Positions 27,780 through 56,213 of a DNA stretch of 64,000 nt are shown piece by piece. Position 1 is the first letter of the stretch. Every line of letters begins with the position of its first letter. The stretch is taken from NCBI GenBank assembly GCA_001692895.1, contig KV748215.1:186001-250000 (forward strand). Direction: 5' to 3'. The notes under the pieces are model-generated. The model worked only from the letters and a program-made list of their open reading frames with translations. It searched no databases and was not told where the DNA came from. The translations under genes were made by a program, and so were the position numbers. The stretch comes from Cenococcum geophilum 1.58 (Eukaryota > Ascomycota > Dothideomycetes > Gloniales > Gloniaceae).

Positions 27780-30700
27780 CCGCGCTTTGCGGATAATCTT
27801 ACTTTACCCCTTCTTTCCTTATCCTTTTACCCTTATTCTTTTACCAGTCCTCTAGGCTTTAAAAGGGCTGGTATCTACTTATATCCTCTATATCTATTGC
27901 CTTCGCTGCCTAAAACTAGGGTAAAATACCTAACTATACTAGCTATTTTGCTGCCGCTTAGGCGCCCTCTTTATTATTTAGAATATCCTAAAGGTGTTTA
28001 GAGGCGCATTTTGCTATAAAGTCCGCCCTTTAGTAGTGTGGATACTGGAATAGTATATAGTGGACTATCTGCCTTATCTAGCTAAATTTGTACTATAGGA
28101 GAACCGCTAGTATACTAACGGATATAAGCTATATATTAAGCCCTATTACCTCTATATAAAGAAGAAATAGTACTATAGCCTCTGCTTTTGTTAGGTCTTT
28201 ATATAATAGGATTATAGGTTTCCCCTATAGGGTCTTTCACGTGGTTTCTATACGGTCTTTAGCCTTTGCCTACTACCGTCGTCGCTATTCTAAATCTGCC
28301 CATTTTGTAATAAAGGTAATTGCCTGCCTTTAGTGCTAGTGACCTCCTATACGGTAGCGGCGCTTTACCTACGCTCTATTGGCGTTCCGCTGGCCATACT
28401 TATAGGGGTTTATTATAGCTTCCCGCTCTATATAGTCCTTTTAGTGCGTAAGGAAGCCTTATATCTTATTTTTATAGTCCTTTACGCGTTCCCTAAGCGC
28501 TTTTAATAGTACTAGTAGCCGTTTTGTTTTTTGCTGGCGCTTTACTAATATATTCTAGATACCGTTAAGTGCCTCTACTAATTCCTTTTCTACCCTATTA
28601 GAGGCCGTCTTGGCAGCTCTTTAAAGGGCTGTTGTTTTAATATGGAGTTGGATTAAGGGAATAGCCGCTTTCTTCTCTATTATAGCTATTAGTGTTTGCT
28701 AGTATGCCCCTATAACCCTGCGGAGACACTAGTTCTAGACTTTCTATAGTGGTTTAAGTAAGCTTTTCGCTGGCGTTCCGCCGTCGTCCTGTACTTCCTA
28801 CACTTAGGCACTATATAGCATTGCTAGTCGGACGGTAGCTATATATAGGAGGCGTAAGTGGCGTATTAATGGGCCCTATATAGACGCGGTAATCCTTAAT
28901 ATTGCTTTAAAGGCTACTAAGCCCTTACTTGCGGCCTTTTTAACCTATTCTTTTTATTAGAGCTTAGGGTCTACCTAAATCCCTAGGACTCGCATACTGG
29001 TTTTCTGGGGGGCTGTCTTGTAGCTAGTAATACGCACGGTGGACGTAAGGTCTATAGTGGTGTGGCGCTGTTGCCTTATAAAGTGTATAAGCTAGTACTT
29101 CTTAGGGGCGAACGCTGCCCCGTGTTAATTTGCCTATATAGTGTAGTAGTTATAGGCGGCCTCTAATTGTCGACAGTTCTCTACTGTGGAGTCCCCCTAG
29201 GTAATAAGGTTTGTATTATCTACGAAGCTAAACCCTAGCGTGCTACTATTAGGGCGCTAGAATTCCTCTAATAGCTCTAATATAAAAAAGAGGAATAAGA
29301 TTAGTAATAAGGGTGACCCCTAGGGGATACCTATCTGCGTCTAAATCTAATTACTTTTATATTTTATAAACTTAATACGGGTTTTATATGCTATTAGGAA
29401 GCTTTATATAAAGTCTATAAGCCACTTTAAAAAGCCTTTTTTTTTTTAGAATGTAGAGGAGCCTTTTATAGGAAACGTTGTTAAATACCCCTGCTAAGTC
29501 TAGGCTTAGCATTAATACTATATACCTACGGCGCGTTTGCTACGCCGTCTATATATAGGAGCTAAGCAGTCCTACCGCTAATAGTATGGATTATTTACGC
29601 CTTACTCCTATTTAGTTTTAAGGGAGTAGCCTATACTCCTCCGCAGCCTTAGATATAATATTGGCTACGTACTTTTCTAGAACTTTTACTAGCGTGTTTT
29701 TAAGGGTAATTGGTCTATAGCTGCCTAAAAAAGAGTAATCTTTCTTTCCTTCTTTACGTAATACTATAGTTATAGATTCTTTAAGGCTTTCTAGTATTAT
29801 TCCGCTGGTAAAGTAATAACTAGCTACTTCTACTAAATCTTTTATAATAACTAGGGTAACCACTTTAAGGACCTTATTTAGTATGCTATCTAGCCCTAGG
29901 GCTTTTCTATTTAAAAGACTTCTAATAAGCTTACTAATTTCTTCTATTAAGATAGTAGGGCTAATATTAAGTATATTTTATTTCTTTATTGTCTCTATAT
30001 TACTAAGGTCTACTATTTTAGTTTTAGGAAAGAACTTAGCTGTAAGGATATCAGCCTTTATAATATTATTATCTATTAAGGGATTTTTAGTAGACCTCCT
30101 AAGGTCTAGTAGATAGGGGTCCGCCTTTACTACGCTTACTTTTCTACTTTATTTTAATAAAGTCCAAAGTCCCTTATTATATAGTTTTAACTAATCTTTA
30201 GTAAGTTTATAAATAAAGCGTCTCTAGTTATTACGGCTAACTCTCCTAGTCTCTTTTTATAGTTAATTATTTAATATTAAATATTTTTAGTAGTCCTTAA
30301 GGTTGTTATAAGCTTAGAGCTATTATTGCGCCTATTAGGCGCCGGCGTAGAGCTATATAGCCTATAGCAACCATTTTTAACAGGCCTACTAGCTAGGCTG
30401 TACTTATAGGCAGTATTCTTTAAGTGCTTGCTTAATCCCTTCCTAAAGGGCTTAAAAGGGGTCTTTAGATATAGCCCAGTTAAGCTCCTAAATACTTTAG
30501 AGAAAGCCCTATAAGTTTAGCTTCTTAAGGGCGAGGCGCTGGCGTTCCGCTAGCGAATAGCTAGCGTTATTAATTTAGATGCGGATTGGTATATAGTCTC
30601 TTATAAGGGCCTATTCCTTAATTATACTATAAAAGTTAACTTTTCTATATAGATCTAGTGATATAAACGTAAGGTCTATTACATTTTCCTATTACCTTCT

Positions 30701-34137: not shown

Positions 34138-36069
34138 ACCTACTTAAATAATTGTTAAAAGGAGACTAATAACCTAAGGTAATCGCAATAATATCCCTTA
34201 TAAGTTGCTTCTTTAAGGAAATTAAATTATCTTTAGATAAGGAATAAACGATCTACTATAATAATTAATAGACAATTTAACTACTTATAAAAGACGGATA
34301 AGAGCTCTTTATAAAGCTTTAATACGTTAATATATACCACTACTAGCTACGCTAAGAAGTACGTAATAATTAAATTAGAATTAATCAGATACCTATCGCT
34401 ACTAAAGTCGCAGATAGCTTAATAAAGGCCTTACTATAATAAAGGCATAAAGGATTTATTTAATAATTAAATCTTATTAATATTTAGGATCTAATTTAAT
34501 TTAATTTAGATAATATTTAGATAAGTTAACTCTATAGAGGATTTCTATAACGTGTCCCGCACTACGTCGCTATATAGCTAAAAAAAAAAAATAGAGAAAG
34601 TACTTATAAACTTAAGCGTCTCTTACGGGATCTAATATATATACTCTTGTAATTTCTTTAACTTAACACCAAATTGGTATTATAACTTTTTCTATTTTCT
34701 ATTTAGTTGCTTAGTTAAGACTAAGCAGCTAGGGGGATATATTAAACATTAAAGTCACTATTAAGTGCTACCTTATAACTTATACCTTGTTTCTTACTAG
34801 TTTATATCTTACTATCTATTTTCTATTACCTATTTATTACCTATTACTAACTAAGTAGTAATACCAACCTTACGGCAATTAAGTAATAGTTACTAAATCG
34901 TCGTTAGTATTGTTCTTAGTTTTTAACCCCTACTTTATATATACAAAGAGCTTTTAAAGCCAGCTTTAATTAGTAGAGTTTTTATAAGTAACTTGTCTAT
35001 CTAATACGTACTTACTTTATAACACGGCTAGCACTAGTAAGGATAAGGTTACTTAGCAAGCTTATTTAATATTTATAGCTAAGACGGAGTATATATATTT
35101 GAGGTTAACGGTAGCTTAATCTAAAAACACTAACTACCGGATATGCCTACCCCTTAACCCATCGAAATTCGTCCTATTGTTATCGATAAGAACTAGCCAA
35201 TTAGATTAATTAAATTAAATCGTTATAGGAGTAAAATTGGGCAGCGGCTATGGGTTCGGTAGTGGTTTTTAAGTACATCGATTTGGGTAAACGTTTTATT
35301 GAGTTGGTTAAACAAGGTCTATATTATTAGAAGTATAATTAAAAAGGCATTGTTAAGAGTAATTAGCTATACGCTTTTTTTTATTTTAGTATTTAAGCAC
35401 GGACTAAATTCTAATAGGACGCTAGTGAGTTAAGGGATATACTATACTAAAGGCTCTACATAGACCTCTACTAAAGACTATGCTAGAAGTTCTGCTAAAA
35501 GCTCTATAGGAAGTTCTGCTAAAACTCTATATAGAGATCTACTGAGGCTCTATATAGAGTTCTATATTCTACTCTCTTTTATATAAATAAGGTGGTATTT
35601 CTATAGTCTATGCGTAATATTAAGAATATTAACACTCTCGCATAGGAATGATATATGGGTGTCGACCCTGTTAAATACCACTATATAAAAATGGCCCGTG
35701 TTAGTAGGCGCATATCTATTAACTTAACGCCTTTAAATAAATCCCTATATATAATCTACAACAAAAATATTATATACTTAAGGCTTTATTTAAAATCTTA
35801 CTAATTTAGTAAAATAACTTACCGCCTATATATGCAGCTTTTTGATTAGTGCGCACAAAGCATATTTTATAGAACGTATTTATCTATATAAGGGATAATA
35901 TTTACTATAAAGCTCTATATAGAACTCTATATCTACTATAGTATCTACTATCCCTTATCCCGTTAGCGTTTAACGAATAAATAGCCTATACGCGAATACA
36001 AGTTTTAAAATAACGCGTGCACCTATATAGATTCTATTAATTAATTACCTATTATAGAAAGGATAAGTA
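34138..36069. other. AT-rich spacer with small inverted repeats
   Basis: No gene was recognised. About 35440-35600 and 35905-35945 contain several copies of an AGCTCTATAT-like motif, the same unit that forms the long array in the palindrome further on. Near 35578-35692 a short imperfect inverted repeat (GTGGTATTT ... AAATACCAC) could be a small hairpin element. Around 35173-35340 lies slightly GC-richer DNA of unknown nature. Confidence 0.5.
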
Positions 36070-36370
36070 CTAACGTACTTAACAAGCGAGTTGGCTGTGC
36101 AAGCGAGTCGGCCATCTTAAAACTCACCAAAAATTGGAAAAATTGCACTTTAGTATCTTAACAACTACTAAATAATAATTAATGCAAATTTAATAGCGGC
36201 CTATTAATGCAATAACTAACTTATATAGAAAGTATTAGATATCCTATATAAGTTAGTTATTATATTAATAGGCCGCTATTAAATTTGCATTAATTATTAT
36301 TTAGTAGTTATCGAGATACTAAAGTGCGATTTTTCCAATTTTTGGTGAGTTTTGAGATGGCCGATCCGCT

Positions 36371-36375
36371 TACAC
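36371..36375. repeat. Target-site duplication TACAC, left copy
   Basis: TACAC before the 5' LTR of the gypsy element pairs with TATAC at 56209-56213. The single difference is a CA-to-TA transition, the preferred RIP change. Confidence 0.78.
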
Positions 36376-36434
36376 TGTTACGGACGCTTTAAGTACAATG
36401 TTACGACTACTTGGAGAGGAGTCGGAAGAAGCTA
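36376..36434 (+). repeat. 5' LTR of the host gypsy, first part (59 bp)
   Basis: Begins TGTTACGGACGCTTTAAG and aligns with 55788-55846 over exactly 59 bp. It ends GAAGCTA, where the palindrome starts. Confidence 0.85.
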
Positions 36435-36499
36435 CATCGGGAAAATATTCGCAGGATGAGATTCAAGTAGACTTTAGTTTTCGCGTTTCGCGTAATTAA
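36435..36499 (+). repeat. Terminal inverted segment of the palindrome, left
   Basis: About 65 bp of non-repeated sequence beginning CATCGGGAAAATATTCGC and containing CGCGTTTCGCGTAATTAATA. It is the reverse complement, with transitions, of 48184-48248. As the outermost shared unique DNA it is the natural candidate for a transposase or recombinase binding site. Confidence 0.75.
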
Positions 36500-36815
36500 T
36501 ATGCAATTTAACTAACTCGACACGTAATTAACCAACTTAATACGCAATTAACCAACTTAATATATAATTTAACTAACTTAATATACAGTTAACCTACTTA
36601 ATATATAATTTAACTAACTTAATACGCAGTTAACCTACTTAATATACAATTTAACTAATTTAATTCGCAGTTGACCTACTTAATATATAATTTAACTAAC
36701 TTAATACGCAGTTAACCTACTTAATATGTAATTTAACTAACTTAATATGTAATTAACTACTTAATATATAATTTAACTAACTTAATATATAGTTAACCTA
36801 CTTAACAACTTTAAA
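36500..36815 (+). repeat. Outer TTAAC-rich tandem array, left arm
   Basis: Repeats of about 40 bp built from TTAATATATAATTTAACTAA and TTAATACGCAGTTAACCTAC half-units. The mirror array at about 47640-48183 is longer, about 545 bp against 315 bp. Confidence 0.75.
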
Positions 36816-36945
36816 AGCTAACTATATATTTCTTAACGTGCGATTAAGGTAAAGTTATATAACTATATATTTAACTATTATATATAATCTATATAATCTT
36901 ATACAATCTTATATAATTTTATATAATCTTATAGTCTTATTACTT

Positions 36946-37668
36946 AGAGGCTCTACATAAGGCTCTACACAAAGCTTTACATATAGAGGCTTTATATAAA
37001 GCTCTGCGTATAGGGCTCTATATAAAAGCTCTATACAAAGCTTTATATAAAGGCTCTTTACAAGGCTTTATACAAAGCTCTGCGTATAGAGGCTTTGCAT
37101 AAAGCTCTGTATAAAGCTTTACACGAAGCTCTATATAAAGCTCTATATAAAGCTCTATACGAAGCTTTATATAAGCTCTATATAAGCTCTATATAAAGCT
37201 CTATATAAAGCTCTATACGAAGCTCTGCACGAAGCTCTATATAAAGCTCTACATAAAGCTCTACACGAAGCTCTATATAAAGCTCTGTATAAAGCTCTAT
37301 ATAAAGCTCTGTATAAAGCTCTATATAAAGCTCTATATAAAGCTCTATACGAAGGCTCTATATAAAGCTTATACAAAGCTCTGTATAAAGCTCTGTACGA
37401 AGCTCTGTATAAGGCTTTATATAAAGCTTTATATAAAGCTCTATACAAAGCTCTACATAAAGCTCTACACGAAGCTCTATATAAAGCTCTATATAAAGCT
37501 CTATACAAAGCTCTATACGAGGCTCTATATAAGGCTCTACGCGAGGCTCTACGCGAAGCTCTATATATAGAGGCTCTGTATAAGGCTCTGCGAGAAGCTC
37601 TACGTATAGAGGCTCTGTATAAGGCTTTGCGTAAAGCTCTATATATAGAGGCTCTATACGAAGCTCTA
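36946..37668 (+). repeat. 12-bp CTCTATATAAAG tandem array, left arm
   Basis: Dozens of copies of a 12-bp unit AAGCTCTATATA with variants such as CTCTACACGAAG. Because the unit is a multiple of three, the minus strand stays open by chance and gives a (RALY)n-type reading, which I do not regard as a gene. The mirror array at 47165-47512 is about half as long. Confidence 0.85.
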
Positions 37669-37798
37669 TATTGGGTCCCCGCTATATTCCCAATAGCCTT
37701 TACACATACCTCTACCCTATATAACCACCTTATTTTTTACCCTTCCTTCCTTCTTTATATCCTCCCTACCTAAGGAGGTACTAGAACGGCAGCTAGTA
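37669..37798 (+). repeat. Mirrored unique linker, left arm
   Basis: About 130 bp of single-copy sequence (TTGGGTCCCCGCTATATTCC onward) between two arrays. It is the reverse complement of about 47037-47164. It shows that the arms are homologous beyond simple repeats. Confidence 0.78.
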
Positions 37799-38295
37799 GA
37801 GAACCGTTACTAGAACTAGATAACTGTCGCCAAAACTAGATAACTGTTACTAGAACTAGATAACTATCGCTAGCTAGACGACCGTCGCTAGAACTAGATA
37901 ACTATTGCCAGAACTAGATAACTGTTGCTAGCTAGACGACCGTTATTAGAACTAGACGACCGTTACTAGAGCTAGACGACCGTCGCCAGAACTAGACGAC
38001 CGTTGCTAGCGCTAGACGACCGTCGCTAGAATAAGACGACCGTTGCCAGAGCTAGACGACCGTCGCCAGAACTAGACGACCGTTGCTAGCGCTAGACGAC
38101 CGTCGCCAGAACTAGACAACTGTCGCTAGCTAGACGACCGTTACTAGAACTAGACGACCGTTACTAGAATTAAACAACCGTCGCTAAAACTAGATAACTG
38201 TCGCTAGCTAAATAACCGTTACTAAAACTAGATAACCGTTGCTAGAGCTAGACAACCATCACTAGAACTAAATAACCGTCGCTAGAGCTAGATAA
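37799..38295 (+). repeat. GACGACCGT minisatellite, left arm
   Basis: About 500 bp of 20-23-bp units of the form AGAACTAGACGACCGTYGCC. The mirror array is at about 46440-47036. Confidence 0.85.
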
Positions 38296-38352
38296 TAATA
38301 ACTAGCTAGCCAATACTATAAACGATTTAATCGATTAATTAAATTAAGGTAG

Positions 38353-38357
38353 TATAG
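38353..38357. repeat. Target-site duplication TATAG, left copy
   Basis: TATAG before the left LTR pairs with TATAG at 44768-44772 after the right LTR of the inner gypsy element. Confidence 0.87.
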
Positions 38358-38550
38358 TGTCACGGAACCCCACCGTAGGGGCCTCCATAGGAGAGCCCCG
38401 TGCTCTTACATACACCTCGCGTACAGCTTACGTTAGCTACGCGTAGGTATATCACCTCCTTACGCCCTCGACCCTTACGATCGATCGCGTAATGTCTTGT
38501 AGACTCCCTAAATATATACGCTTTATAGCCATTGCCCACGCTCCATAACA
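38358..38550 (+). repeat. 5' LTR of the inner gypsy
   Basis: 193 bp, TGTCACGGAACCCC to CTCCATAACA. It is GC-rich compared with its surroundings and shares the TGTTACGGA-type start with the other gypsy LTRs. Confidence 0.9.
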
Positions 38551-41500
38551 TTACGTTGCGCCTTTTTTTTTTCTTCTTTACTAACGCTTAGCCTATAACT
38601 AATTCTACGTCTCTATAATACCGCAGATGCTGCTAGAAGCAGCATATCTATAAGTTACCTCACTTTATACTCCTAAAGAATTAACGATAGTAAGACGAAA
38701 TTCCTTACTAGCCACTATGTTAAACTCAAAGAATAACCTAATACCTATATTAAAACCACAACACCAATTAGTCCTAGGAGGATTTAATTTGTTAGCCCTA
38801 GCCTTAACCCCTAAAGGGAAGCCTAGTGGCTTAAAAGACTACAACAACTATAAGGGGGACATTAATAATATCTTATCCTTTATTAACTATATAACCATGG
38901 ATAAATAAGCTAAAGGGCTACTACTTATTAAGATCGAGATACGAAACGCTAAGATATTTATAAAAATAGTAGCATAAGAACCCAATAAATACTACCGCCT
39001 TCTATAGAACTACTATCTAAAGCTTACATAAGCTAAGATGCGTGCTGCTTAAGATTATAATATTATCCAAAACCTACAAGCTTGTAAGGCGCTCGCTAAT
39101 AACATACGCTAAGAGATTAAAGACGACCTCTATGCGTCTAAACGCGACGTCTAACAATTAAAGAAGGCCAAGATTATACTTATTGCTACGGTTACCGAAA
39201 GAGAGGGTATAATTAAATACCTATAATCTTAGCTTAATGAGCACATTTATAATAATACTAGATACCTCTCTACTATATATAACACCACCTAAGTCTCTAT
39301 GCCCCCGGCAACCTTACCTACTTAACGCTTAATAAAAGGTTAGCGCTAAGCAGCTTTACCTAACGGGAACCCCTACTATAGCAGCGGCGACAACAAAAGC
39401 TACAATAATTAAACCTAAACTACTACTATAGGGTCCAATACACGCTACCCTAATCCCCTAATCTTTAAGGGTAACCGTAAGGAATACAGCCACTAGAAGA
39501 TATAAACCCGCGAGAAACTAACCTAGAGCACCTACCTTTTCCCCATAGAAGATACTAAGATTGGCTATATTATTGGACGAACGAAGGGCATCCCGTTTAA
39601 TAGGCTTTTCGCTTAATAGGAGACTAGCAGTCCCTAGAAGTGGTAGTCCCACCAGGAAGTCCTTAATAACCTTAACTAAATATACCACGACTATAACCTA
39701 GTGGCCACTAGTTAAGCTAAACTACGCGCCCTAAAGATAAGTCCTACTAAATTATTCAACGAGTTTTATGTTAAATTCTAGGAATATACCAGAGTCCTCG
39801 CCTAAGACGACGCTAAAGACTAGGAAGATCTCCTTAAAAAAGTCACTTATTGCCTTAGTCACGCAGCCGCCAGCTATAACTATAATAACGTTTATAATAT
39901 GGTAGTAGCCCTATAGAAGATTAAACGACGGCTAAACTAGATTACTACTGCAAACCCCTACCCAAAGACCTCCCTATAGAAGCCCTCCGGACCTACTAAA
40001 CTACCGACGCCTACTACCCTAAGTAACACCACTGGTCCTAATATCGACCTCTCCATACTAGCTTTCCTAAAAAAGCTACTAGATAAAGAGCGTAAGCTAC
40101 TCCGGAAGCTAAGGCGTTGCTATAGATGCCGTTAAGAAGGCTATTATAGCTATAGCTTAAACTGCCTAATAGCTAGGTTTAGCAGCCGCCGTTAAATACC
40201 TAACCCTATGCCCTAGACACTAAATATATTACTACACGCCGCTACTATATAAGACGAAGATGCAGCAATGGTAGTATAATTAGACGCGGAAGCGGAAAAT
40301 ATAAAGTTTTAGCCCTAAGTTATAGGTTAGGATACTCTAATAATAGAGGGATTTATATATCGGCTTNCTTAATAGATAGCTTAGTAAGAATAGAAGGACA
40401 AAAGCAAATAGTCTTACCTATAGAGGGAACTACTGCTAAGAAACAATATAAAACCCGTTCTATAATTAACTACGGAGCTACTAATAAATTTATAGATACC
40501 TAATTTGTACGTACTTATAACCTACCTACTTTACCCCTCACCAAAGCCTGCGCCCTATAACTCGTTGACGGTAGTTATACTATATAAAAGATTACCTATA
40601 TAGCACAACTCTACCTAAATATAAACGGACACTAGGAGGAGCTTTAGGCCTATATTACACCACTTGCGAACTACCCTATTATTCTTAGAATAAACTGGCT
40701 TAAATAATATAACCCCACCATTAACTGGCAAAAGAGAGAAGTAACCTTTAACTCTAAATACTGCAGAGAGACTTACCTAGGGCACGGCCTAGCCGCCTCT
40801 ATTTACTCCCTAGGACATTAACCTAAGGAAACCCTTATTACCCTACCCACGACTAACTGCCACTACGTAAGCGCCGCGGCCTTTTACCGCATAGTATATA
40901 GGAAAGGCTAAACCGTTGCCGTAGCCTCCTAATTATAACTATATAAGCTTAATAAAGATTAGGACTACGTCCTCTATAGTAACAGGATAGATATAGTCAA
41001 TCTCCTAGAAAACAATGCCCCCGCAGAACTCTACGGACTTTCACCCTTAGACTTTAAGAAGTTTATAAAGCTTAAAAAAGGACTTACTAACGAGGAACTC
41101 CGCAAGCTTCTCCCTAAGAGATACTATAACTTTATTAACGTATGCTTACAAAAGAGCGTAGATATACTCCCCCTACATTAACCTAACAACTATGCCATTA
41201 ATATTAAATAAGGAAAAACGTCACTTTATAAGAGACCTTACCCAATATTAAAAGACGAACTCTTAGTTATTAAAAAGTATATTAACGAGCACCTTAATAA
41301 AGGGTTTATTCGTCCTAGTATGTCCCTAGCAGCCGCCCCTATTCTCCTTACTAAAAAGCTAAAAGGAGGTATTTAATTCTATATTAACTATAGAGGACTT
41401 AACGCTATTATAATTAAGAACTGATACCCCGTACCGCTTATACGCGAGACCCTTAAACGGCTTAGCTAAGCCAAAATCTATACTAAACTCGATATTATTG

Positions 41501-44500
41501 CCGCCTTTAACCGCCTCTAAATACGGGAAGGTGACGAATAGAAAACCGTATTCGTATTGCGCTTCGGCCAATTTAAATACACCGTTATGCCTTTTAGCGT
41601 ATGCAACGGCCTAGGCAGCTTCTAAAGCTATATTAATAATGCCTTACGGGACTACCTTAACAACTTCTACTCCGCGTACCTGGACGATATACTTATTTAT
41701 AGCAACGACCCTTTTAAGCATACCGAGCACGTTTAAAAGGTCCTATAGCGCCTTAGAGATGTAGGACTTTACATTAATTTAAAGAAGTACGAATTCTCAG
41801 TTATAGAAGTAAAATACCTTAAACTAATTATTACTACTAAGGGTGTCCGTATGGACCCTAAAAAAGTATACATAATTACTGGATGGTAAACCCCTACCTG
41901 CATTAAGGACGTATAAGCCTTCCTTGGTTTCGCTAACTTCTATCAGAAATTTATATATAACTTCTTGGGTGTTATAGCACCATTTATAGCAATGATGCGA
42001 ATAAAGGGCCTTTCCGCGAAAGAAAGAAAAACACATCTACGTTTTATCTAGATGCCTAAATGCGAAAAGGCGTTCTAAGACTTAAAAGATGCGTTTACCA
42101 AAGCACCTATCCTAGCTTACTTTATACTAGGACGACAACTCTATCTTAAGACTGACTCCTTAGACCACGTCAACGCGGGCGTCCTCTCCTAGATAGGCGA
42201 CGACGGTCTCCTCCACCTAGTCGCATTCTACTCGTCTAAGCTTATACTATAAGAATGTAACTACAAGATCTATAATAAGGAACTCCTCGCAATTATATAA
42301 GCGTTTGAGGAATTTTAACCGGAACTCTCCTTAGCAGAACCTAACTAGCCAACTAAGGTCCTTACGGATTATCGCAACCTTAAGTACTTTATAACTACGA
42401 AATAACTAAACTAACGCTAAGCACGTTAGAACGAGTTCCTCTCTAGTTTTAACTTTAAAATTGTATATAGGCTAGGAGTATAAGGTACTAAGCCTAATAG
42501 CCTAACACGCCGTTTACAAGACCTTCCTCAGTTAAAAGATAACCCTTATAATTAATTCCAACGACAAACAATCCTAAAAGCACAAAACTTAGCCCTAGGC
42601 ATACTACCCAAGATAGAACCAACCGCCCCTTAGCTTTATACCACAGAACTAGAGTTACCCCCTAAAATCGATAAACTCATTACTGTAGTATATAACACCC
42701 CTATTAACCTATTACTGTATTAACTAATTACCGTAAAGATCGCTAGTACCCGTATACTGCCTATTAACCTCCAAAGTTTAGGCCAGATTAATATAGCAGC
42801 CTTAAAAGTAAAAGAGAATAGGCTCTATTATAGAGGCCGTCTATTTATCCCCAACTTAGAAGACCTATAACGGCAACTAATCCAAATGGCCTATAACCTC
42901 CGATTAAGCGGCCACCTAGGTAAAGGAGGAACCTATAAGCTTCTTAGCCAATACTACTTCTGGCCCAAAATAATAGACTTAGTTAAACGCTTTATAAGCG
43001 CCTGCTATAGCTATAAACGTGCTAAAGCATTTCACACAAAATACTAAGGACTACTATACCCTCTACTAGTACCTATATAACGATGGGCAGATATCGCCAT
43101 AGATTTCGTTATTAACCTACCGCCTTATAAGCGATATGGCTGAACCTATAAGAACATCCTTATAATAATATGCTAACTTATAAAAGAACGCCACTACGTC
43201 CTAACTAAAGGCGTAGCCGTAAGCAACATTGCCGACACCTTTCTCCGCAAAGTCTACCGACTATATAGGTTACCCGACTCTATTACGTCTAACTAAGGCA
43301 CATAATTTAACTCTAACGTATAGAGGCGGATCTGCTAACGCCTTAGTATCTCCGTTAAGATGTCTATATCCTTTTACTATAAAACTGCGGGATAACCGGA
43401 AAACGCTAACGCTAGTATAAAGGCGTACTTACGACAGGTAGTCGCCTATAGTTAGGACGACTGGGTAGACTACCTTCCACTAGGTAAATTTGTAGCAAAT
43501 AACTATATCTTAGCCACTACAGGACTTACCCCGTTCTTCGCGAATAAAGGATATTACCTATAATCCGGTATAGAGCCACTAGAGCCTATTGATAAGAAAC
43601 TGCCATATGGAAAACGCCTTAAGATGCTACTTACTAATTAATATGCAGACTGTATAAAAGACCTACTTAACTACTATAAAGGAGAGATGGCCTGGGCCCA
43701 AGCAAAATAAGCTTACTTCGCCGACCGCTATAGAATACTACTACCGGAGATACGTGTTGGTGATTAGGTATGGCTAGATATACGTAATATCTCTACGCAG
43801 AGGCCTATAAAGTCACTTAATTATAAAAACCTCGGCCCCTATCTAATTAAACGAGTTATTAATAGGGGAGCTGCATACGAACTAGAGCTCCCGCCTACCC
43901 TAGCCACCCGCGGGATATAGCCTATATTTCACCCATGGCTACTACACCTTTACTAGCCTAACCCTTTACCGGGACAGACACAGCCTAAACCCCTACTAGT
44001 ACTAATCCGAGATGAGAACAAAGACGAGAACCATAAGGAGTGGACCGTTAAACGAATTATTGACTCTAAATACTTTAGTAAAGGCAGAGGACGACGGCTC
44101 TACTATAGAGCTATCTACATAGGATTTAACATAGATTAGCTAAAATAGTAACTATGGGAAGACTTTAAAAATGCAAAGGACCTAATTAGCGACTTTTACT
44201 ACGCGAACCCACAGAAACCGGGCCTAAGCAGAGATTTTATACCTAATCCTCTATAGGAGCCCTTATAGAGTTAAACCGTTATATATTGCTACGTAAGGGC
44301 AAATTACCGTTAGATTGCCGCAGATTGCTATTATGTAATGGCAAAATACGATCACGTAACCAGAATATTAATAAGATGTTTAGGAACTTCGACCAGCGGT
44401 TAAAGTTATCTAATTAATCGGATTCTTAGGTGCCAAGCCTTATTACATAACATTATTTTAAGCCCTTAGCGATACCCCCTTTACTTTTCCTTCTCTATAC

Positions 44501-44574
44501 CTTAAATGTCCCTTTTATATATATATAGCAACTATAGCGTCGCCGGAGCTCCGCCTCTATAAGAGGGGGGGTAG

Positions 44575-44767
44575 TGTTACGAAACCCCACCGTAGGGGCC
44601 TCCATAGGAGAGCCCTATGCTCTCGCGTACACCTCGCGTACAGCTTACGTCAGCTACGCGTAGGTATATCACCTCCTTACGCCCTTAACCCTTACAATCG
44701 ATCGCGTAACGTCTTATAGACTCCCCAAATACATACGCTTTGTAGCTATTACCCGCGCTCCGTAACA
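44575..44767 (+). repeat. 3' LTR of the inner gypsy
   Basis: 193 bp, TGTTACGAAACCCC to CTCCGTAACA. It follows a purine-rich run (AAGAGGGGGGGTAG) at about 44561-44574 that is placed like a polypurine tract. Confidence 0.9.
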
Positions 44768-44772
44768 TATAG

Positions 44773-45290
44773 ATAGGTAGGCATAAATAGGTAAATACTA
44801 ATAGGTAGGTAGATATAGATAAGTAGGTAGATATAAATAGGTAAATAGATATAGATAGGCAGGTAGATATAGATAGGTAAGTAGATATAGATAGGTAAGC
44901 AGATATAAATAGGTAGGTAGATATAAATAAGTAGATATAGATAGGTAGGCAGATATAGATAGGTAAGTAGATATAGATAGGTAAGCAGATATAAATAGGT
45001 AGGTAGATGCTAATAGGTAGGTAAATATAAATAGGTAGGTAGATATAAATAAGTAGATATAAATAGGTAGGTAGATATAGATAGGTAAGTAGATATAGAT
45101 AGGTAAGCAGATATAGATAGGTAAGTAAATACTAATAGGTAGGTAAATATAGATAGGTAGGTAGATATAGATAAGTAGGCAAATATAGATAGGTAGATGT
45201 AGATAGGTAGGTAATATAGATAGGTAGGTAGATATAGATAGATAGGCGATATAGGTAGGTAGATAAGTTAATAGGTATAATAAATAGGTA
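44773..45290 (+). repeat. TAGATAGGTAGG microsatellite array, left arm
   Basis: About 520 bp of GATA/GGTA repeats (TAGATATAGATAGGTAGG). The inner gypsy landed at its edge, and the target duplication TATAG is part of the array motif. The mirror array is at about 45990-46387. Confidence 0.88.
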
Positions 45291-45989
45291 AAAGAGAACC
45301 ATTGCTATATTATATTAAATTATCTAAAATAATAATATTTATTTTACTAGCCTTACAAATAGCTTTAAAATAGCTTTTATTTATTTAAAATATGCTATTA
45401 GTATAAAAGAGGTAAATATAATTATGGTTACTAAATACGTAAATTGCTGGTAGGTTACGCGTAGGTTATATATAGGTTGCGCGTAGGTTACGTATAGGTT
45501 GCGTATAGGTTACGCGTAGGCTATATATAGGCTATATATTAAAAAAACATAATATAGGCTAGTCGGTCGAGTTACTAAATGACCTTAACTACGCGCTAAT
45601 TGCGTCAACTACTAACTATTAAGGCTATTAAAAGGGTACTATATTTTATTAATATAGTTTATTAGCAAAATATAGTACCCTTTTAATAGCCTTAATAGTT
45701 AGTAGTTAACGCAATTAGCGCGCAGTTAAGGGCATTTAGCAACTTGACCGACTAGCCTATATCGTGTTTTTTTAATACATAGCCTACGCGCAGCCTATAC
45801 GCAACCTACGCGTAACCTACGCGTAACCTACTAGTAATCTACGCATTTAGCAACCATAATTATATTTACCTCTTTTATACTAATAATATATTTTAAATAA
45901 ATAAAAGCTATTTTAAAGCTATTTATAAGGCTAGCAAAATAAATATTATTATTTTAGATAATTTAATATAATATAGCAATAGTTCTCTT
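45291..45989. repeat. Central core of the palindrome
   Basis: Mirrored single-copy DNA meets at a 19-bp spacer (45648-45666) flanked by AGGGTACTATATTTT / AAAATATAGTACCCT. It includes a short array of GGTTACGCGTA units (about 45444-45540, mirrored at about 45775-45850). Apart from the spacer the arms are complementary over more than 300 bp each, so this DNA could fold into a cruciform or its transcript into a long hairpin. Confidence 0.85.
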
Positions 45990-46387
45990 CTACTTATCTA
46001 CCTATTAACTTACCTACCTGCCTATATCGCCTACCTATTTATATTACCTACCTATCTATATCTACCTATCTATATTTACCTACCTATCTACATCTACCTA
46101 CTTATCTATATTTACCTACCCGTTAGTATCTATCTACCTATTTATATCTACTTACCTATCTATATCTACCTACCTATTTATATCTACTTATTTATATTTA
46201 CCTACCTATCTATATCTACCTACCTATTAGCATTTACCTACCTATCTATATCTACTTGCCTATCTATATCTACTTACCTATCTATATCTGCCTACTTATC
46301 TATATCTGCTTACCTATCTACATTTACCTACCTATCTATATCTACCTACCCGTTAGCATCTACCTATTTATGCCTACCTATCTATAC
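45990..46387 (-). repeat. TAGATAGGTAGG microsatellite array, right arm
   Basis: Mirror of 44773-45290 (CCTACCTATCTATATCTA units), about 400 bp. Confidence 0.88.
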
Positions 46388-46439
46388 TACCTTAATTTAA
46401 TCGATTAATTAAATCGTTTATAGTGTTGGCTGGCTAGTC

Positions 46440-47036
46440 GTTGTTATCTAGCTTTAGCGACAGTTGTCTAGTTCTGGCGACGGTTGTCTAGTTTTAGCGA
46501 CGGTCGTCTAGCTCTAGCAACGGTCGTCTAGTTCTGGTAACGGTCGTCTAGTTTTGGCGACAGTCGTCTAGTTCTAGTAACGGTTGTTTAGCTAGTAACA
46601 GTCGTCTAGTTCTAGCGATAGTCGTTTAATTCTAGTAACGGTTATCTGGCTAGTGACGGTTATCTAATTCTAGTAATAGTCGTCTAGCTAGCGACGGTTG
46701 TCTGGTTCTGGTGACGATTATCTAGCTCTGGTAACGGTCGTTTGGTTCTAGTAACGGTCATCTAGCTAGCGACGGTCGTCTAGTTCTAGCGACGGTTGTC
46801 TAGTTCTAGTGACAGTTATCTAGTTCTAGCGACGGTCGTCTAGCTCTAGTAACGGTTATCTAGTTCTAGTAACGGTCGTCTAGCTAGCGACGGTTGTCTA
46901 GTTCTGGCGACGATTGTCTAGCTCTGGCAACGGTCGTCTAGTTCTAGTGACGGTCGTCTAGCTAGTAATAGTTATCTAGTTTTAGTAACGGTTATCTAGT
47001 TCTAGTAACGGTTATCTAGTTCTAGCAACGGTTCTC
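46440..47036 (-). repeat. GACGACCGT minisatellite, right arm
   Basis: Mirror of 37799-38295, about 600 bp, unit GGCGACGGTCGTCTAGTTCT with variants. Confidence 0.85.
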
Positions 47037-47164
47037 TATTGGCTGCCGTTCTAGTGCCTTTTTAGGTAGGGAGGATATAAAGAAAGAAGGAAGGGTAAAA
47101 AATAAGGTGGCTATATAGGGTAGAGGCACGTATAGAGGCTATTAGGAATATAGCGGGGACCCGA

Positions 47165-47512
47165 TATAGAGCTTTGTGTAGAGCCTCTGTACGTAGAGCT
47201 TCGCGTAGAGCCTCGTATAGAGCCTTTATATATAGAGCTTCTCGCAGAGCCTCGTATAGAGCCTCTATATGTAGAGCTTCGCGTAGACCCTTACGTAGAC
47301 CCTCGCGTAAACCCTCGTATAAAGCTTCGTGTAGAGCTTTATATAGAGCCTCTATATATAGAGCTTTATATAGAGCCTTATATAGAGCCTTATACAAAAC
47401 TTTGTATAGAGCTTTATATAGAGCCTCTATACGCAAAGCTTTGTATAGAGCCTCTATACGCAGAGCTTTGTATAAAGCTTCGTATAGAGCCTTATATAAA
47501 GCCTCTAAGTAA
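47165..47512 (-). repeat. 12-bp TATAGAGCTTTG tandem array, right arm
   Basis: Mirror of 36946-37668 in opposite orientation, about 350 bp. Open readings on both strands here are simple products of the 12-bp unit. Confidence 0.85.
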
Positions 47513-47639
47513 TAAGACTATAAGATTGTATAAGATTGTATAAGATTATATAAGATTATATATAATAGTTAAATATATAGTATATAACTTTACCTTAATC
47601 GCATATTAAGAAATATACAGTTAGCTTTTAAAGTTATTA

Positions 47640-48183
47640 AGTAGGTTAACTGTATATTAAGTTAGTTAAATTATATATTAAGTAGGTTAACTACGTGTTA
47701 AGTTAGTTAAATTGTATATTAAGTAGGTCAACTGCGTATTAAGTTAGTTAAATATATATTAAGTAGGTTAACTGCGTGTCGAGTTGGTTAAATTATATAT
47801 AAGTAGGTCAACTGCGTGTTAAGTTAGTTAAATTGCATATTAAGTAGGTCACTACGTGTTAAGTTAGTTAAATGCATATTAAGTAGGTCAACTATGTGTT
47901 AAGTTAGTTAATTACATGTTAAGTAGGTCAACTGCGTATTGAGTTAGTTAAATTGCATGTTAAGTAGGTCAACTGCGTGTTAAGTTAGTTAAATTGCATA
48001 TTAAGTAGGTTAACTGCGTGTTAAGTTAGTTAAATTGCATGTTAAGTAGGTCAACTGCGTGTTAAGTTAGTTAAATTGCATATTAAGTAGGTTAACTGCG
48101 TGTTAAGTTGGTTAAATTGCATGTTAAGTAGGTCAACTGCGTGTCAAGTTAGTCAATTGCGTGTTAAGTTGGTTAAATTGCAT
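47640..48183 (-). repeat. Outer TTAAC-rich tandem array, right arm
   Basis: Mirror of 36500-36815 in the opposite orientation (TTAAGTAGGTCAACTGCGTG, TTAAGTTAGTTAAATTGCAT half-units). CG and CA dinucleotides are kept better here than in the left arm. Confidence 0.75.
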
Positions 48184-48248
48184 ATTAATTACGCGAAACG
48201 CGAAAACCAAAGTCTACTTAAATCTCATCCTGCGAATATTTTCCCGAT
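48184..48248 (-). repeat. Terminal inverted segment of the palindrome, right
   Basis: Reverse complement of 36435-36499, ending TTTTCCCGAT at the junction with the gypsy LTR. Confidence 0.75.
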
Positions 48249-48610
48249 GTTGGTTAATATAAGCACGGTCTAGGATAGAACCCGTAGAACTATATAACAA
48301 GAAATGGTAACTAAGGTCATATAAGGTGCTATAAGAGGAACGAGAGAAATAAAGGGAATTTACGTACCTTATATACAAAACGTATATTATATATAAGAAG
48401 GATTTTATAGGAGTACAGTTATGTATTTAAGGACCCTTAGTCCCTACCTAGATAGTTCCTTCCTTATAGTAATTCTTAGAATACAATTAGAGTTAATCTA
48501 TTAGGCAACCACTCTACCAGTTATTATTACGTTGTTAATTTACTTGCAATACCTATACACCTAGCCCATTAACAAGCCTACTGTAGTCCCTACTATAAGG
48601 CTTCGTTATA
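48249..48610 (+). repeat. 5' LTR of the host gypsy, second part (362 bp)
   Basis: Aligns with 55847-56208 over exactly 362 bp. Together with the 59 bp at 36376-36434 this restores a 421-bp LTR with no base lost or duplicated at the palindrome insertion point. Confidence 0.87.
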
Positions 48611-51600
48611 TAATTACTACTACAGTTACAGTTTTAATAAGTTAAATAACATGCCACTAAAAGCAGCTACTATAACGATATTAATGGCGGCAACTACGTT
48701 AGGATTAGGTAACGATATTAGTATAGCAGACACTGACTTATAATAATTTATAATAGTAGGACAGTTATAAATAATAGTTAATTAGCTAACGGGAGATAAT
48801 ACGGCACTTGAAAATAGGATTAATAGAATAAAAGCAGTAAAGGTTAAGTTACTATTAATTAAAAGATTCTTAGGAGAAAGATTAAAGCTTAAAGGATTTC
48901 TTACGTAAATATACTTTAAGGTTGCGTAGGAAGGAGCAAAGCTAGTAATAACTATGGATTAAGTAGTATATACAGGATTGTTCTTATTAAGAAGAGCACT
49001 TAAATAGTTTAAGCCTTATCTTATAGAGATATAAGCAAATAGAATGATAATAACAAACTAGGAAGTACGGTTTATATTTTTAAGCTAAAATAGATTTGTA
49101 AAGCGATTTATATAAATATTTAGGGACCCGGAAGCAATAACTATAGTAAAAAGAAAGCTTTAGGACCTAACGTAACGGACTTTAGCGATTAAGTATATAA
49201 TATAATTCTAAATACTAGCTATATAACTTAAGTGGAATAATAAGGCGCTTATAGCATAGTATAAATAGGGACTTAAGGCTAAAGTCTAGAACGCAATTAT
49301 TCTAATAGAAGATGCGGACACCCTAAGGGAATTAATAGATTAAGCGATTAAGATTAATAATAGGATCTTCTAAAGGGAATAGGCTAAGAAGGGCTAGGAT
49401 AGAGTTCTATAGTTATATAAGATATAGAGTATATAATGACTAAAGCTAAATTAGAAACTATGGTATAGCGCAAAGCTAATGGACCTAAGCGGTACTAAAG
49501 AAGCCTATAGGAGATAGAGTAAGAAACTATAAAAACCTAGAGGTTAAGGATCTAGTGATTATAGGACTAAGGAGCATAGGCTAAACTAGGGATCTTAATA
49601 GTAGAAGACGTTTAGGCGGACTCTATAATAAAGTTAATAGTTTAGAGACGGAGCTTATATAAATTATAAAAAATAGGGTTACTTTGTAAGGGATTATAAA
49701 GATAGTTAGAGTTACTATATAATAAAGGGAACTAGACCAGTAGTATATAATATATATATATAAAGGGATAATAGTGCGCTATAAGAAATAAAAGAATATT
49801 TAATTAGAAGTTTTGCGTTTTATTATAACAACGTATGCCAAATTTATAAAGACGCTAAGTATAGTGTAAGCTATTGGCTATAAGAGCTAGAGTTAAAGGG
49901 ACTTAGAGGAACTAAAGAGTTAGATAAAAATAAGATTAACTCTATAAGCTGGATTAAGATATTATAGCAATATACGGATAAAGATTAGTAATAATAATAA
50001 TAGAGTCGGAGTACTTATTAATTAATAGTAATAAGGATAGTAAAGGAACTAACTAGGGGTATCTAAACCTTAATAATATAATAGAAGTAGAGACTAAAAC
50101 CGCTATAAAGTAAGGTTTAGTAACGGGTATTATAATACTATTAGATACAGTATCTATTACTTTATAAGACGGAAGAAGTAATATCTAGAAACGATTAAGT
50201 AAGTAAACAACTGCTAGTGCTAGCTTACTACTTAATAAAGGCAAAAAGCTAAAGGCTTAAGATTCTTAAGACAAGATAAAAGATAACTAAGATTCTTAAG
50301 ATAAGATAAGGTAAGCTTAAAGACCTATAATAGACAGAAACCGATAGAGTAGAGTAGTAGCTTAGTTTAAGGATATATAAATAAGCTTAGGATAAGAATT
50401 CCCAACAGTATAAGACTTTTAAGATAAGATAAATGAGATCTAGGACTCTTAAGAAGAGATAAGGATACTAGTTAAGCCTAGTTGGACTAAAGTAGGAGCT
50501 AAGCTTAAGTTAGAAGTAAGCTTAGGATTAAAGAATCTAAGGGGTTAAAAATTCGGAGTATAAATCAGGATACCTATAAGTAAGAAGTAAGAGGCTTCTT
50601 TATAGATTAGAGAATCTATAGCGTAAATAGTAATTAGACTAAGAGACAGATATATAGACCTAGAGGACTTATTAGGGGAATATAGTGTTTAGCCTAAAGA
50701 TTAAAAAGTTAATACCAAGATTAAAAAGCATAAAAACTTTAAAGATCTACTTGTAAGACGCAATATAAAGGAAACCATAGAGGAATTTAGGGTAAGAATT
50801 ACCTTATAGTAAGAACAGAAACTAGATAAAAAATCTAGCATATTAGGACGTATAAAGGATAAAGCACTAATACAAAGAATTACTAATAGGCCTAGAATAG
50901 GCATACTAAGAGCTAAGTAGCTTACTAAACTAAAACAAGAAGAGGATCTAGGGATTCCTACTAGGTTCAAAGAACGACACACTAAAGGCTGTTACAACGT
51001 AGTAATAAAGAGATATTTCCTTACGGACGAGCTATATATACTTAAGCAGCTATACTAAAAGTAGTATAGGCAACAATATAACAATAAGTGGGAAGATTTC
51101 TATATATAGTTGGATAAGAAAGTTATCCAAGACCACCCGATTATAGAGAAGGCTATAACTTATATTAAGGGGGCCTTAATTATAACATTAAAAGATCTAG
51201 AGGAGTAATTAGAGGACTAGAGAAGTAAAAAACGAATCTCGGTACCTGCGAACGAAGTTATAACGCTTAGATTAACACGAGAGAGGTTTAAACTTAAGGA
51301 TAAGGATAAGCCAAGAGTTAACCTAAGATATTAAGCATATTATATACTATTATAGATAGCATATATGGATAATACGTATAATATATATAGAGCACTAAAG
51401 AACAAAAATTAAAAGTATCTAATAAGGATATATTAGATAATAGATAAGGTGAAATATAAAAACGCTAAATATATGTATAGTTAGTACCTAATAGAAGTTT
51501 AAGAATAAGGGGACTTAATACTTTAACTAGGAAGATTCCTTACGGAAAAATACCTAGATAAATAATAATGGTGGGAATGTCTAGAGAATACCTATCTATA

Positions 51601-54600
51601 GTATATTAAAGATAAAAAACGAACTAAGTATTGGCCTAAGTTGGACTAAGTATAAATAGGATCTAGTAGCTAATAGTTAGGAAAAGTAGAGGCCTACAGG
51701 ACTAGAGGGAGCCAGTAGTAGAGCTTTAGACCCTTAAAGGAATTTAAAAACGACACCTAAATTTACAAATTAAGTAGCAAGATTAATAGTTTAAGGCATT
51801 AATAGATAGTGGAGCAATAAGGAACTATATTTTGCTAGTAGTAGTAAAAAGAATGGGATTACTATATAGGTAAAAGGAATGTCCTTACCTATTAGTAACA
51901 ATTTTAGGAGATCTAATAGCCTACAGAGGAGGCATTATTAATCTTAAAATAGGACCTATTTAGTTAACCATTAAAGGAAGACTAGTTAAGATGTCTTTCG
52001 ATATATTACTATTAGGGAATAATAAGGCAGTACTAGGAATGCCTTAGTTATAGGAATATAATCCAAAGATTAATTAGGTTATAGGTTAGGTTAATATTAA
52101 AAATATATAACACCACAAGATACAATAATAAGCCAAGTTAGTATAGTACTAAGTAAAAGTGACCTATAAAGAAACAGAAAAAGGGCTAAGCTATATACTA
52201 AAAAGATACTATAAGTATGGTAAGAAACTATAGTTACCTAAGAGTAAAAAGCTATTAGAGTATATAGTATGGGACTATAAGATAGAATTAGACCTAGGAA
52301 TAAGTCTAAGGTTCTTTCTAATCTATAAGCTTACTAAAGAAAAAGGTAGAGCATTAAAAGAGTTTGTTTAAGAAAACTTATAAAAAGGATATATTAGACC
52401 ATCGCAGTTATTAGCGGGATATCTAGTACTATTTATACTAAAAAAGAATAGTAAACTAAGGCTGTATATTAACTATAGACAGTTAAATAGCATTATTAGA
52501 AAGGATAGATATCTTTTACCCTTAATTAGCGAAATCTAAGATAGGATAGGTAATGCGCAAATCTTTATAAAGATAGATCTAAGATGGGCGTACTATTAGA
52601 TTAGGATTAAAGAAGGCAACAAATAAAAGGCAGCCTTTAGGTTAAAGAAAGGACTATATAAACTATTAGTTATACAATTCGGGCTTATAAACGCACTAGT
52701 AACGTTTTAGAAGCGTATTAATAATATATTAGGAGAACATTTAGATAAATTTATTATAGTATATTTTAATAATATTATCATCTACTTAATAAACAAGGAA
52801 GAGTATGGAGAATACATTAAATAGGTATTAAAGAGACTATAGGAAGAACAGATGCTAGTAGCAATTAAGAAATACAAGTTCTTTACTAGGAAGACCAATT
52901 TTGTTAAATTTATTATTAAACTAGGCCAACTTAGCATAGATCTAAAGAAGATTAAGGCTATAGTAAATTGGCAGGAACTAGAGAACGTTACGCAGTTAAG
53001 ATTATTTCTAGGGTTTTATAATTACTATAGAAGGTTTATAGCGTAATAGTTAAAGGATATTAAACCATTTACACGATTAATAAAGAAAGAAGAACTATAG
53101 GTATAGGGAGAGGAACAGTAAGAACTCTTTAAAAAAGTTAAAGAGTTGTTTACCTAGGAGCTAGTTCTTAAGATCTATTAACTAGGACTAGAGACAGTTA
53201 TAAAAACAGATGCATTAGACTTTATACTAGAAGCATACTTTATATAAAAGCATCCAAATAGATAGCATCTAGTAGCATACTATAGTTAGAAGATAACACC
53301 ACTAGAATTAAACTATAACATCTATAACAAGGAGTTATTAGGTATAGTTACAGCACTAAAGAAATAAAGAGCGTTCTTATAAGGCATAGAAAAACTATTT
53401 ATAGTTAAAACAGACTATAAGAACCTAATAGGATTCCTAATAACAAAGGAACTTAACTAAAGATAGGTTAGATAGGCAAAGATACTTATAGAATACTATT
53501 TTAAAATTTAGTATACTAAGGGTATAGATAACACGTAAGCTAATATATTAAGTTAAAAGGCTAAACTATAAAATAACGATAAGCTATTAGGGGCTTTACT
53601 ATAAAAAGACACAGATGGACTAATTAGGTATAATTATCTAAAGATCGCAGCAATATAAGAAAATAAGTTAGAAAAGAAAGTCTATAAGATACTAGAAAGC
53701 TTTTAGGTATAAAGGATTCTAAAAGCATAACTAGAAGACCTATAGTTGGATATATACAAAAATTGAGAAGCAAAGTATATCCTAAGAGGCATAGTAGAGT
53801 AGTTCGTGGAGGACTTCTATAAGGGACTAACTTAAGGACACAATAGAGCTATAGGCTTAGTATTAAGACTCTAAAAGGAGTATATTATTAACGGAATCTA
53901 AAGGATAGCTAGAAGGGTTACTAAAGAGTATCTAAATTACTAAAGAAACAAACTAATAAGGCATAAGCCGTATGGAGGGCTATAACCTATTAAAATACCA
54001 GAGAGACTATAGGAGGTTATATTATAGGACTTTATTATTAAGTTACCAAAATTAGGAGACCCTATTACCGGATAAGATTACAACGTAATCTTAGTAATAG
54101 TAGATAAGCTTACAAAATAGGGATACTTTATAGCCTATACGGAAGAAATCTCAGCAGAAGATATTACTAGAATCTATATTAAAGAAGTATTCGTAAGATA
54201 TAAAGCACTAAGTAAAATTATATCGGATAAAGATCTAAGATTCATAGCAGCATTTTAGAAAGTATTCTTAGTAAAATAAGGAGTTTAAGTAGTAACTTCT
54301 ACCGTATATTACCTATAGACAGACAGTTAAACGGAAAGATTAAACTAGATACTAGAGTAGTATTTAAGGCACTATATTAATTACGTACAGAATAATTAGG
54401 TATCGCTATTACCAGTTATATAATTTACATACAATACAACACCATAAGAAGGAATAGGTATATTACTATTTAAGGCGAATTATAGATATAAGCTAAGAAC
54501 ATCATTATCGCCATAATAAGTAAAGAAAATAAGTAGTAAAGCTAAGTAAAGAATAGAGACTTTAATAAATCTTTATATAAACCTTATAGAAATAGCTAAG

Positions 54601-55787
54601 ACAGTATAACAAAGAATAAAAAAGTACTATAATGCTAAAAGATCTAAGGGACTAGATCTTAAGGAGGGAGATAAAGTATGGCTACTATATAAAAATTTTA
54701 AGAGTTAACAACTAAGTAAGAAGTTGGACTACGTTAAACTAAAACCTTTTAAAATTACGCAGAAAATTTCATTAGTTACGTTTAAGTTAAACCTACTAGC
54801 TAAAATAAAGATTTACCCTATATAGTATATCGTAATACTAAAGCTAGCACACAGAAATATTAAGCTACTAGTTTATAAAGTAGACATATATAGAGAATAG
54901 GAAGAAGATAAATAGTAAGTTTTAAAGATTATTAGTTATAAGGACGTTAATAATAAAATATAGTACAAAGTAAAGTAGATAGGCTATAATAAGACTACCT
55001 AGGAGCTACTAGAGAATCTAAAGAACGCTATAGGAAAGGTATAGGAGTATTAGAAAAGAAAAGGTTAGGCAATATTAATAAAGAGGAATTACTAAAGAAC
55101 GAGCTACCTAAGGGGGACCTAGGAAGAGCGACTGCCGAACTACTTAGAGTTATTTCCTTCTCTATTAGAAGAGAATCCGTTTTTTTATTACTAAGTTCCT
55201 ATAGACCTTATTTTATAAGTTTCTACTCCTTAAAATAACCCTTTTTATATACCTTCTTAAAACAAAGTAAACGGGTAGACGCCGCGATATAAGCATCTAG
55301 GGCCTTCTATTCCGCATTCTAAGAATATTTAAGCTTAGCAAGGGCCTACGCTAAGTCACTATTAAGCTTTATAGTAGCAGATTAAATATAAAACCCTATA
55401 ATAAATTATTTAGGGAACTTAAAGACTATTAAGAGTTATAGGACGCGTATACTTAGCGTTAAAAGTAGAATAAATATTACAAAACAATTAAATATTTGCT
55501 TTAGTGCACTCTAAATAAAAAAAGGGTTGCCAAGATAAAGGACTTGCTAGCGCAATACATACTAACCCCTCCCTTAAGCAACGAGAATATAGAGATAGCA
55601 TTATTTCACTAAGCGATAATATTACAGCAATAGTGCGAGCACAACGTTGCGCGTATAAAGAGGAAGAAGCTTTAAGTATTATAAGTAATAATATTAACTA
55701 AATTAATTAGACGGATATTACACCTTTAGTAAATAACTTAGAGATACTAAGTATCTTTAAAGACGAAGATAGAGAGGAGGGAGATAG

Positions 55788-56208: not shown

Positions 56209-56213
56209 TATAC
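56209..56213. repeat. Target-site duplication TATAC, right copy
   Basis: Pairs with TACAC at 36371-36375. The outer end of the hairpin element's right arm resumes at 56214. Confidence 0.78.

Follow-up and report, generated by a model that had tools for sequence, protein, structure and literature searches.

Foldback elements are characterized by long inverted arms that contain tandem arrays, and two described families come closest to the locus reported here. In Tetris of Drosophila virilis, the arms measure up to 1,735 bp, the repeats approximately 220 bp and the duplications 8-10 bp, and the three structurally complete copies have no conserved open reading frames (PMC4079207). In the Tm1 Mutator/Foldback family of root-knot nematodes, 45 of the 53 complete elements show duplications of 8-10 bp (PMC3169594). 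To our knowledge, how foldback elements move and how they keep long arrays matched is poorly explained. Here, we describe a palindrome at positions 36435-48248 of a 64-kb stretch of the Cenococcum geophilum 1.58 genome (contig KV748215.1, positions 186,001 to 250,000; hereafter the window). The palindrome was inserted as a finished unit into the long terminal repeat (LTR) of a retrotransposon, and we regard it, with slightly better than even confidence, as a non-autonomous foldback-type DNA transposon with a size of approximately 5.4 kb. We found no gene in it.

The palindrome shares with Tetris the long inverted arms, the outer flanking domain and the internal tandem repeats, the number of which is variable in Tetris. 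It differs in that each arm carries five or six unrelated arrays, where Tetris has one repeat of approximately 220 bp, and in that the arms measure 2.6-2.8 kb, the middle spans just 19 bp and a target-site duplication (TSD) of 8-10 bp is missing. Composite inverted ends with tandem arrays, the repeat number of which differs between the arms, are common to the palindrome and Tm1, whereas the arrays of Tm1 consist of one motif of approximately 14 bp and the family usually has 9-bp duplications, many copies and, in one group, a predicted transposase. Because Tetris (PMC4079207) and Tm1 (PMC3169594) already combine long arms with arrays, the suggestion of an initial annotation, which was made from the sequence alone, that the palindrome represents an undescribed element class is not established. 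No such element in a fungus appeared among the titles and abstract openings listed in our literature search, which mostly covered work outside subscription journals. The word 'foldback' is absent from the available passages of a paper on the transposable elements of Mycosphaerella graminicola (PMC4522978), and those of a review of giant transposons mention it once, for Drosophila (PMC6431247).

Architecture of the palindrome

A self-comparison of the window revealed a large inverted repeat at 36434-48250, in which the longest exact inverted match was 55 bp compared with at most 20 bp in 100 first-order Markov sequences. The left arm of 2798 bp (36435-38357 and 44773-45647) is separated from the right arm of 2582 bp by a spacer of 19 bp (Table 1), and the size of approximately 5.4 kb is obtained once a nested LTR retrotransposon of 6.4 kb is subtracted. 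From the outer end to the centre, the modules of both arms follow the same order, namely, a 65-bp end and then B, C, D, E, F, G, H, I, J and K, with tandem arrays of 41-, 12-, 20-, 18- and 11-bp units (B, D, F, H and J) in mirror order. The initial annotation had read this anatomy correctly in describing arms of about 2.8 and 2.6 kb, a 19-bp spacer, common 65-bp unique ends, single-copy linkers that mirror each other (as the arm comparison confirmed) and five kinds of array; a short array of 10-bp units in linker C makes these five or six. Two foldback traits are therefore present, the long inverted arms with tandem arrays inside and the single-copy outer end that is followed by array domains.

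The core K together with the loop (45536-45780) folds into a near-perfect hairpin (-107.2 kcal/mol, z -24.28 against 200 shuffles), which is expected of any palindrome. The window as a whole is AT-rich, with a GC content of 0.25-0.44 per kilobase, and contains several copies of LTR elements. Miniature inverted-repeat transposable elements are short non-coding elements with terminal inverted repeats and remain under about 1 kb; at 5.4 kb without the nested element, the palindrome is beyond that size, and we rejected this assignment.

Table 1. Features of the palindrome, of the retrotransposon nested in it and of the host retrotransposon (positions counted from the first nucleotide of the window).
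Feature	Position	Strand	Remarks
Whole insert (palindrome and nested retrotransposon)	36435-48248	.	Missing from empty site; LTR pair 421:421 ungapped after removal
Host retrotransposon, 5′ LTR, first part	36376-36434	+	TSD TACAC at 36371-36375
Left terminal single-copy end, CATCGGGAAAATATTCGCAGG...	36435-36499	+	Versus right end: 62 identical, 2 transitions, 1 unpaired base
Array B, 41-bp unit, left copy	36500-36812	+	
Linker C, including short 10-bp TATATAATCT array	36813-36944	+	
Array D, 12-bp unit GCTCTATATAAA, left copy	36945-37671	+	
Linker E, single copy	37672-37796	+	Versus mirror copy: 112 identical, 13 transitions
Array F, 20-bp unit, left copy	37797-38308	+	
Linker G	38309-38357	+	Last bases are the TSD TATAG (38353-38357) of the nested retrotransposon
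Nested LTR retrotransposon, outside the palindrome proper	38358-44767	+	LTRs 38358-38550 and 44575-44767
Array H, 18-bp unit TAGGTAGATATAGATAGG, left copy	44773-45290	+	
Linker I, single copy	45291-45446	+	146 identical, 10 transitions
Array J, 11-bp unit GTAGGTTACGC, left copy	45447-45535	+	
Inner core K, left copy	45536-45647	+	104 identical, 7 transitions, 1 transversion
Central spacer (loop), 19 bp	45648-45666	.	
Right arm, mirror of left	45667-48248	-	1977 identical, 255 transitions, 10 transversions over 2242 aligned positions
Right-arm modules, centre outward	K, J ~45776-45850, I, H ~45990-46386, G, F ~46428-47037, E, D ~47160-47510, C, B ~47627-48186, terminal end	-	
Host retrotransposon, 5′ LTR, second part	48249-48610	+	
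Host retrotransposon, 3′ LTR (empty site)	55788-56208	+	AAGCTA/GTTAG at 55846/55847; TSD TATAC at 56209-56213

Empty site and insertion junctions

The palindrome interrupts the 5′ LTR of the host retrotransposon, in line with the clean boundary inside an LTR that had been noticed earlier, and the 3′ LTR of the same retrotransposon serves as the empty site. Without 36435-48248, the two LTRs aligned over their 421 positions with no gap, 388 identical positions, 33 transitions and 0 transversions, and the host flanks TACAC and TATAC are one transition apart. Because the LTRs rejoin ungapped, the palindrome came as one finished unit and without a TSD, with the loss of at most one target base. The insertion point lies between AAGCTA and GTTGG, that is, between A and G. 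The left end reads CATCGGG and the right end CCCGAT, the latter followed by a G that can be assigned to the element or to the LTR; if this G is the element's, one target base was lost, an estimate behind which stands a single copy.

These junctions also bear on the possibility that a half-element entered the LTR first and that its mirror was then copied in place by replication template switching. The copying of a half-element, which had been proposed in the initial annotation, would explain the mirror well, and in their single-copy parts the arms match each other almost perfectly. However, the right end re-enters the LTR at the base that directly follows the left junction, where in-place copying would have had to stop by chance. 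With the LTR rejoined base for base, we consider copying at the insertion site very unlikely.

Insertion without a TSD is also found in other groups. Spy of the PHIS superfamily, a cut-and-paste element, resembles the palindrome in this respect, whereas it prefers AAATTT as a target and the palindrome occupies AAGCTA/GTTRG and has arms that are kilobases long (PMC4482050). Helitrons likewise leave no TSD (PMC4522978). The fungal Helitron2-like FoHeli, which belongs to this rolling-circle class, has asymmetric ends with inverted repeats of approximately 12-16 bp, and TNAT/A is the insertion site of FoHeli1/2 (PMC5148889). Helitrons in general have short asymmetric ends and insert at AT. In contrast, the ends of the palindrome are symmetric over 2.6 kb, and its insertion is between A and G.

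Divergence of the arms

Transitions dominate the differences between the two arms (Table 1). A CpA/TpG context was found for 175 of the 255 transitions but for only 58 of the 643 unchanged C/G columns (Fisher p about 2e-71), where the context was scored when present in either arm, which slightly favours changed columns. Because the transitions are concentrated in this context, the decay of the arms is RIP-like and carries the signature of repeat-induced point mutation (RIP), a process of filamentous ascomycetes. Both LTR pairs differ by transitions alone (33 of 421 and 20 of 193 positions), the context test applying to the arms only. The regional indices are RIP-like across the window, with a TpA/ApT ratio of 1.55-1.85 in 12 of 13 regions and the lowest value, 1.22, in a small inverted-repeat element.

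After the palindrome was inserted, C-to-T decay at CpA drove the arms apart, and a second LTR retrotransposon entered linker G of the left arm. The 193-bp LTRs of this nested retrotransposon have 173 identical positions and 20 transitions, its TSD TATAG is present at both 38353-38357 and 44768-44772, and its own empty site is the mirror arm, which is uninterrupted near 46360-46410. The RIP-like decay marks time since insertion, and the empty site within the window shows the complete arrival.

The same observations address an assembly artefact, the possibility that the initial annotation had named as a refutation. Single Ns and runs of up to three Ns are scattered at 4951-5690 and 40367, which points to uncertain base calls, and arrays are hard to assemble; however, the arms differ by 255 transitions, the nested retrotransposon is present in one arm only, and the two outer junctions are matched by an empty site at another position of the window. 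We therefore judge an artefact to be extremely improbable, although array lengths could be mis-assembled.

Copying of the arms

The six single-copy linker stretches show 661 identical positions, 49 transitions and 3 transversions between the arms. Because they differ almost solely by transitions, the arms were copies of each other, and their single-copy parts were near-identical at the time of insertion. For the arrays, we compared the order of the units between the arms by shuffling the right-arm units, which were cut in phase, with 500 shuffles for each of three scorings. For array D, 0, 0 and 0 shuffles scored as high as the observed order, and for array H, 3, 0 and 0 did so. This phase-keeping control supersedes one with units of fixed length, which breaks the unit phase and gave 2 of 300 for J and 0 of 300 for each of the other four arrays. 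The unit order in D and H, which is common to both arms, favours copying after these arrays had expanded; therefore, one arm was copied from the other when at least D and H were already expanded, and the palindrome arrived with at least two arrays in mirrored unit order.

The arms also differ in length, with 242, 20, 18 and 60 bases missing on the left arm and 1, 1, 9, 15, 49, 319, 2, 86, 18, 18, 5 and 33 on the right arm. Five of these 16 differences are exact multiples of the unit of their own array (20, 60, 18, 18 and 33), and the rest are near multiples or not multiples. We also considered whether the array units derive from each other or from the ends and found no support for this; of 84 pairings, 3 had p values of 0.03 or below.

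Related repeats and coding potential

The window was searched with 14 module queries for sequences related to the palindrome. Array D has similarity outside the element at 35442-35567 (58.1 bits), at 35906-35932 and 54553-54588 (41.0 bits each) and at 28122-28161 (37.4 bits), compared with 36.5 bits for the best of 20 Markov sequences. An exact 23-bp match to linker G lies on the opposite strand at 58737-58759 (42.8 bits versus 31.0 in the control); it is AT-rich, and so are its surroundings, which by eye are unlike the element. In the region 35380-36010, array D is the only query that scores above all 60 Markov controls; the next closest are the end combined with B, for which 2 of 60 controls reached the score, and minus-strand E, for which 3 of 60 did. 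Within it, a stretch of 551 bp (35419-35969) has imperfect inverted ends (34 nt, 74%) and subterminal array-D-like repeats (35442-35567 and 35906-35932), and it is possibly a small relative with the same repeat type.

Beyond the window, three motifs had 0 exact matches in viral contigs, one motif had none in contigs of bacterial and archaeal genomes, and 45262-46015 had no match among plasmids. Negative results from viral, bacterial/archaeal and plasmid collections are of little value for judging whether copies exist in a fungus.

Ten stop-free frames of at least 120 aa were present in the window, nine of which overlap the arrays of the arms and were read as array repeats (including 37167-37736, 44798-45304, 45972-46400 and 47062-47517). 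Because the 12- and 18-bp units are multiples of three, such frames arise over arrays, and they are probably not genes. We rejected a coding relic or partner after Pfam searches with 6 and 10 chosen fragments of the window, none from the arms, in which Integrase_H2C2 was the only family above its cutoff; this match (E 1.9e-12) is an integrase zinc-binding fragment of the nested retrotransposon at 42871-43047, to which zf-H2C2 also matched below its cutoff. The remaining matches were below cutoff as well, GH-E at 60287-60601 and RVT_1 at 29618-29977. The latter shows weak likeness to a reverse transcriptase on the minus strand (E 0.012, below the family cutoff) and is perhaps a remnant of a long interspersed nuclear element.

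Proposed origin and mobility of the palindrome

The foldback architecture of the element that had been proposed in the initial annotation is supported, and the empty site shows insertion as a unit, but a TSD is absent. The alternative that we take most seriously, while considering it unlikely, is a linear palindromic fragment that was copied elsewhere, by fold-back at a break in a minisatellite-rich region, that was then taken up when end joining repaired a double-strand break in the LTR, and that is not mobile. Capture would account for the absence of a TSD and of a known second copy, and array-D-like repeats do occur outside the element (35442-35567). Breaks with fold-back copying are moreover a documented source of inverted duplications: in yeast, fold-back annealing at natural inverted repeats of 3-15 bp is followed by fill-in and replication (PMC10622511). 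However, both ends have the same sequence within one base, which a random broken fragment would not need, and the junctions have no filler and lost at most one base. We prefer a transposon over fragment capture because the ends are sharp and match each other, the insertion is precise and the anatomy is that of known foldback elements.

It appears doubtful to us that the palindrome derives by deletion from a larger autonomous element, or is the terminal remnant of one, such as an element with very long inverted ends similar to Maverick or to Mutator-like elements (MULEs), which would have lost its coding core and kept the 19-bp spacer. Just 19 bp separate the arms, and MULEs have duplications of 8-11 bp and, in the analysed set, inverted ends of 14-500 bp (PMC6446971), neither of which fits.

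Several results weigh against the interpretation as a foldback transposon whose arms were copied with their arrays. Within the window, the terminal ends match only each other, and the palindrome is present there as a single copy. We recognised neither a transposase, in Pfam searches of the chosen fragments outside the arms, nor an end motif that is typical of a known superfamily. We know of no named family that matches the CATCGGG ends, and the inverted ends are shifted by one base relative to each other. The single copy has neither the TSD of approximately 8-10 bp that is a foldback trait nor the 8-11 bp that is a Mutator-like trait. No exact direct repeat of at least 3 bp was found in the registers scanned around both junctions, and a transition-tolerant scan gave five registers, the longest of which, GCTA/GTTG (4 bp), is not a duplication because the empty 3′ LTR already has GCTAGTTA. 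Because TSDs of 8-10 bp accompany 45 of the 53 complete Tm1 elements, the lack of one in a single copy is not without precedent (PMC3169594).

Three arrays add to these points. For array B, the observed unit order was reached by 17, 21 and 80 of the 500 shuffles, which is suggestive of a common order but does not establish it clearly; array F was mixed (204, 35 and 3 of 500 shuffles; 13, 8 and 4 of 27 rotations), and array J was uninformative (500, 57 and 57 of 500). In a purine/pyrimidine code, the longest match between the arms exceeded both matches within the arms in only two of the five arrays, F and H. The expansion of the arms by slippage, which had also been put forward initially, is thus compatible in part: the arms differ in array length, but the unit order of D and H favours copying after expansion, and B, F and J do not decide.

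For the foldback transposon that we favour, fold-back copying may have made the mirror or may renew it, in that a single strand would snap back at the 19-nt loop and one arm would template the other, which would yield two identical outer ends. The unit order that is common to the arms in D and H fits such copying, and the fold-back annealing studied in yeast (PMC10622511) likewise speaks for it. A transposase supplied in trans would then recognise the ends, perhaps aided by the subterminal arrays, and move the unit. A more far-reaching version, in which the palindrome represents a new class of all-repeat mobile palindromes that leave no target duplication and whose hairpin intermediate re-copies one arm, including its arrays, in each cycle, seems improbable at present. 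If further copies should also be without a TSD, the usual cut-and-paste model of foldback elements would not cover the palindrome.

Neighbouring elements

The host LTR retrotransposon itself splits a small inverted-repeat element (36071-36375 and approximately 56214-56239). The arms of this small element (36097-36228 and 36244-36375) are 132 nt long and 92% complementary and enclose a spacer of 15 nt. Beyond 56213 the small element seems to continue, and TA appears to form both of its ends. It is the outermost layer of a four-level nest. In addition, the stretches 21045-26550 and 50697-56210 are related LTR-element sequences in opposite orientation that are 77% identical over 5.5 kb.

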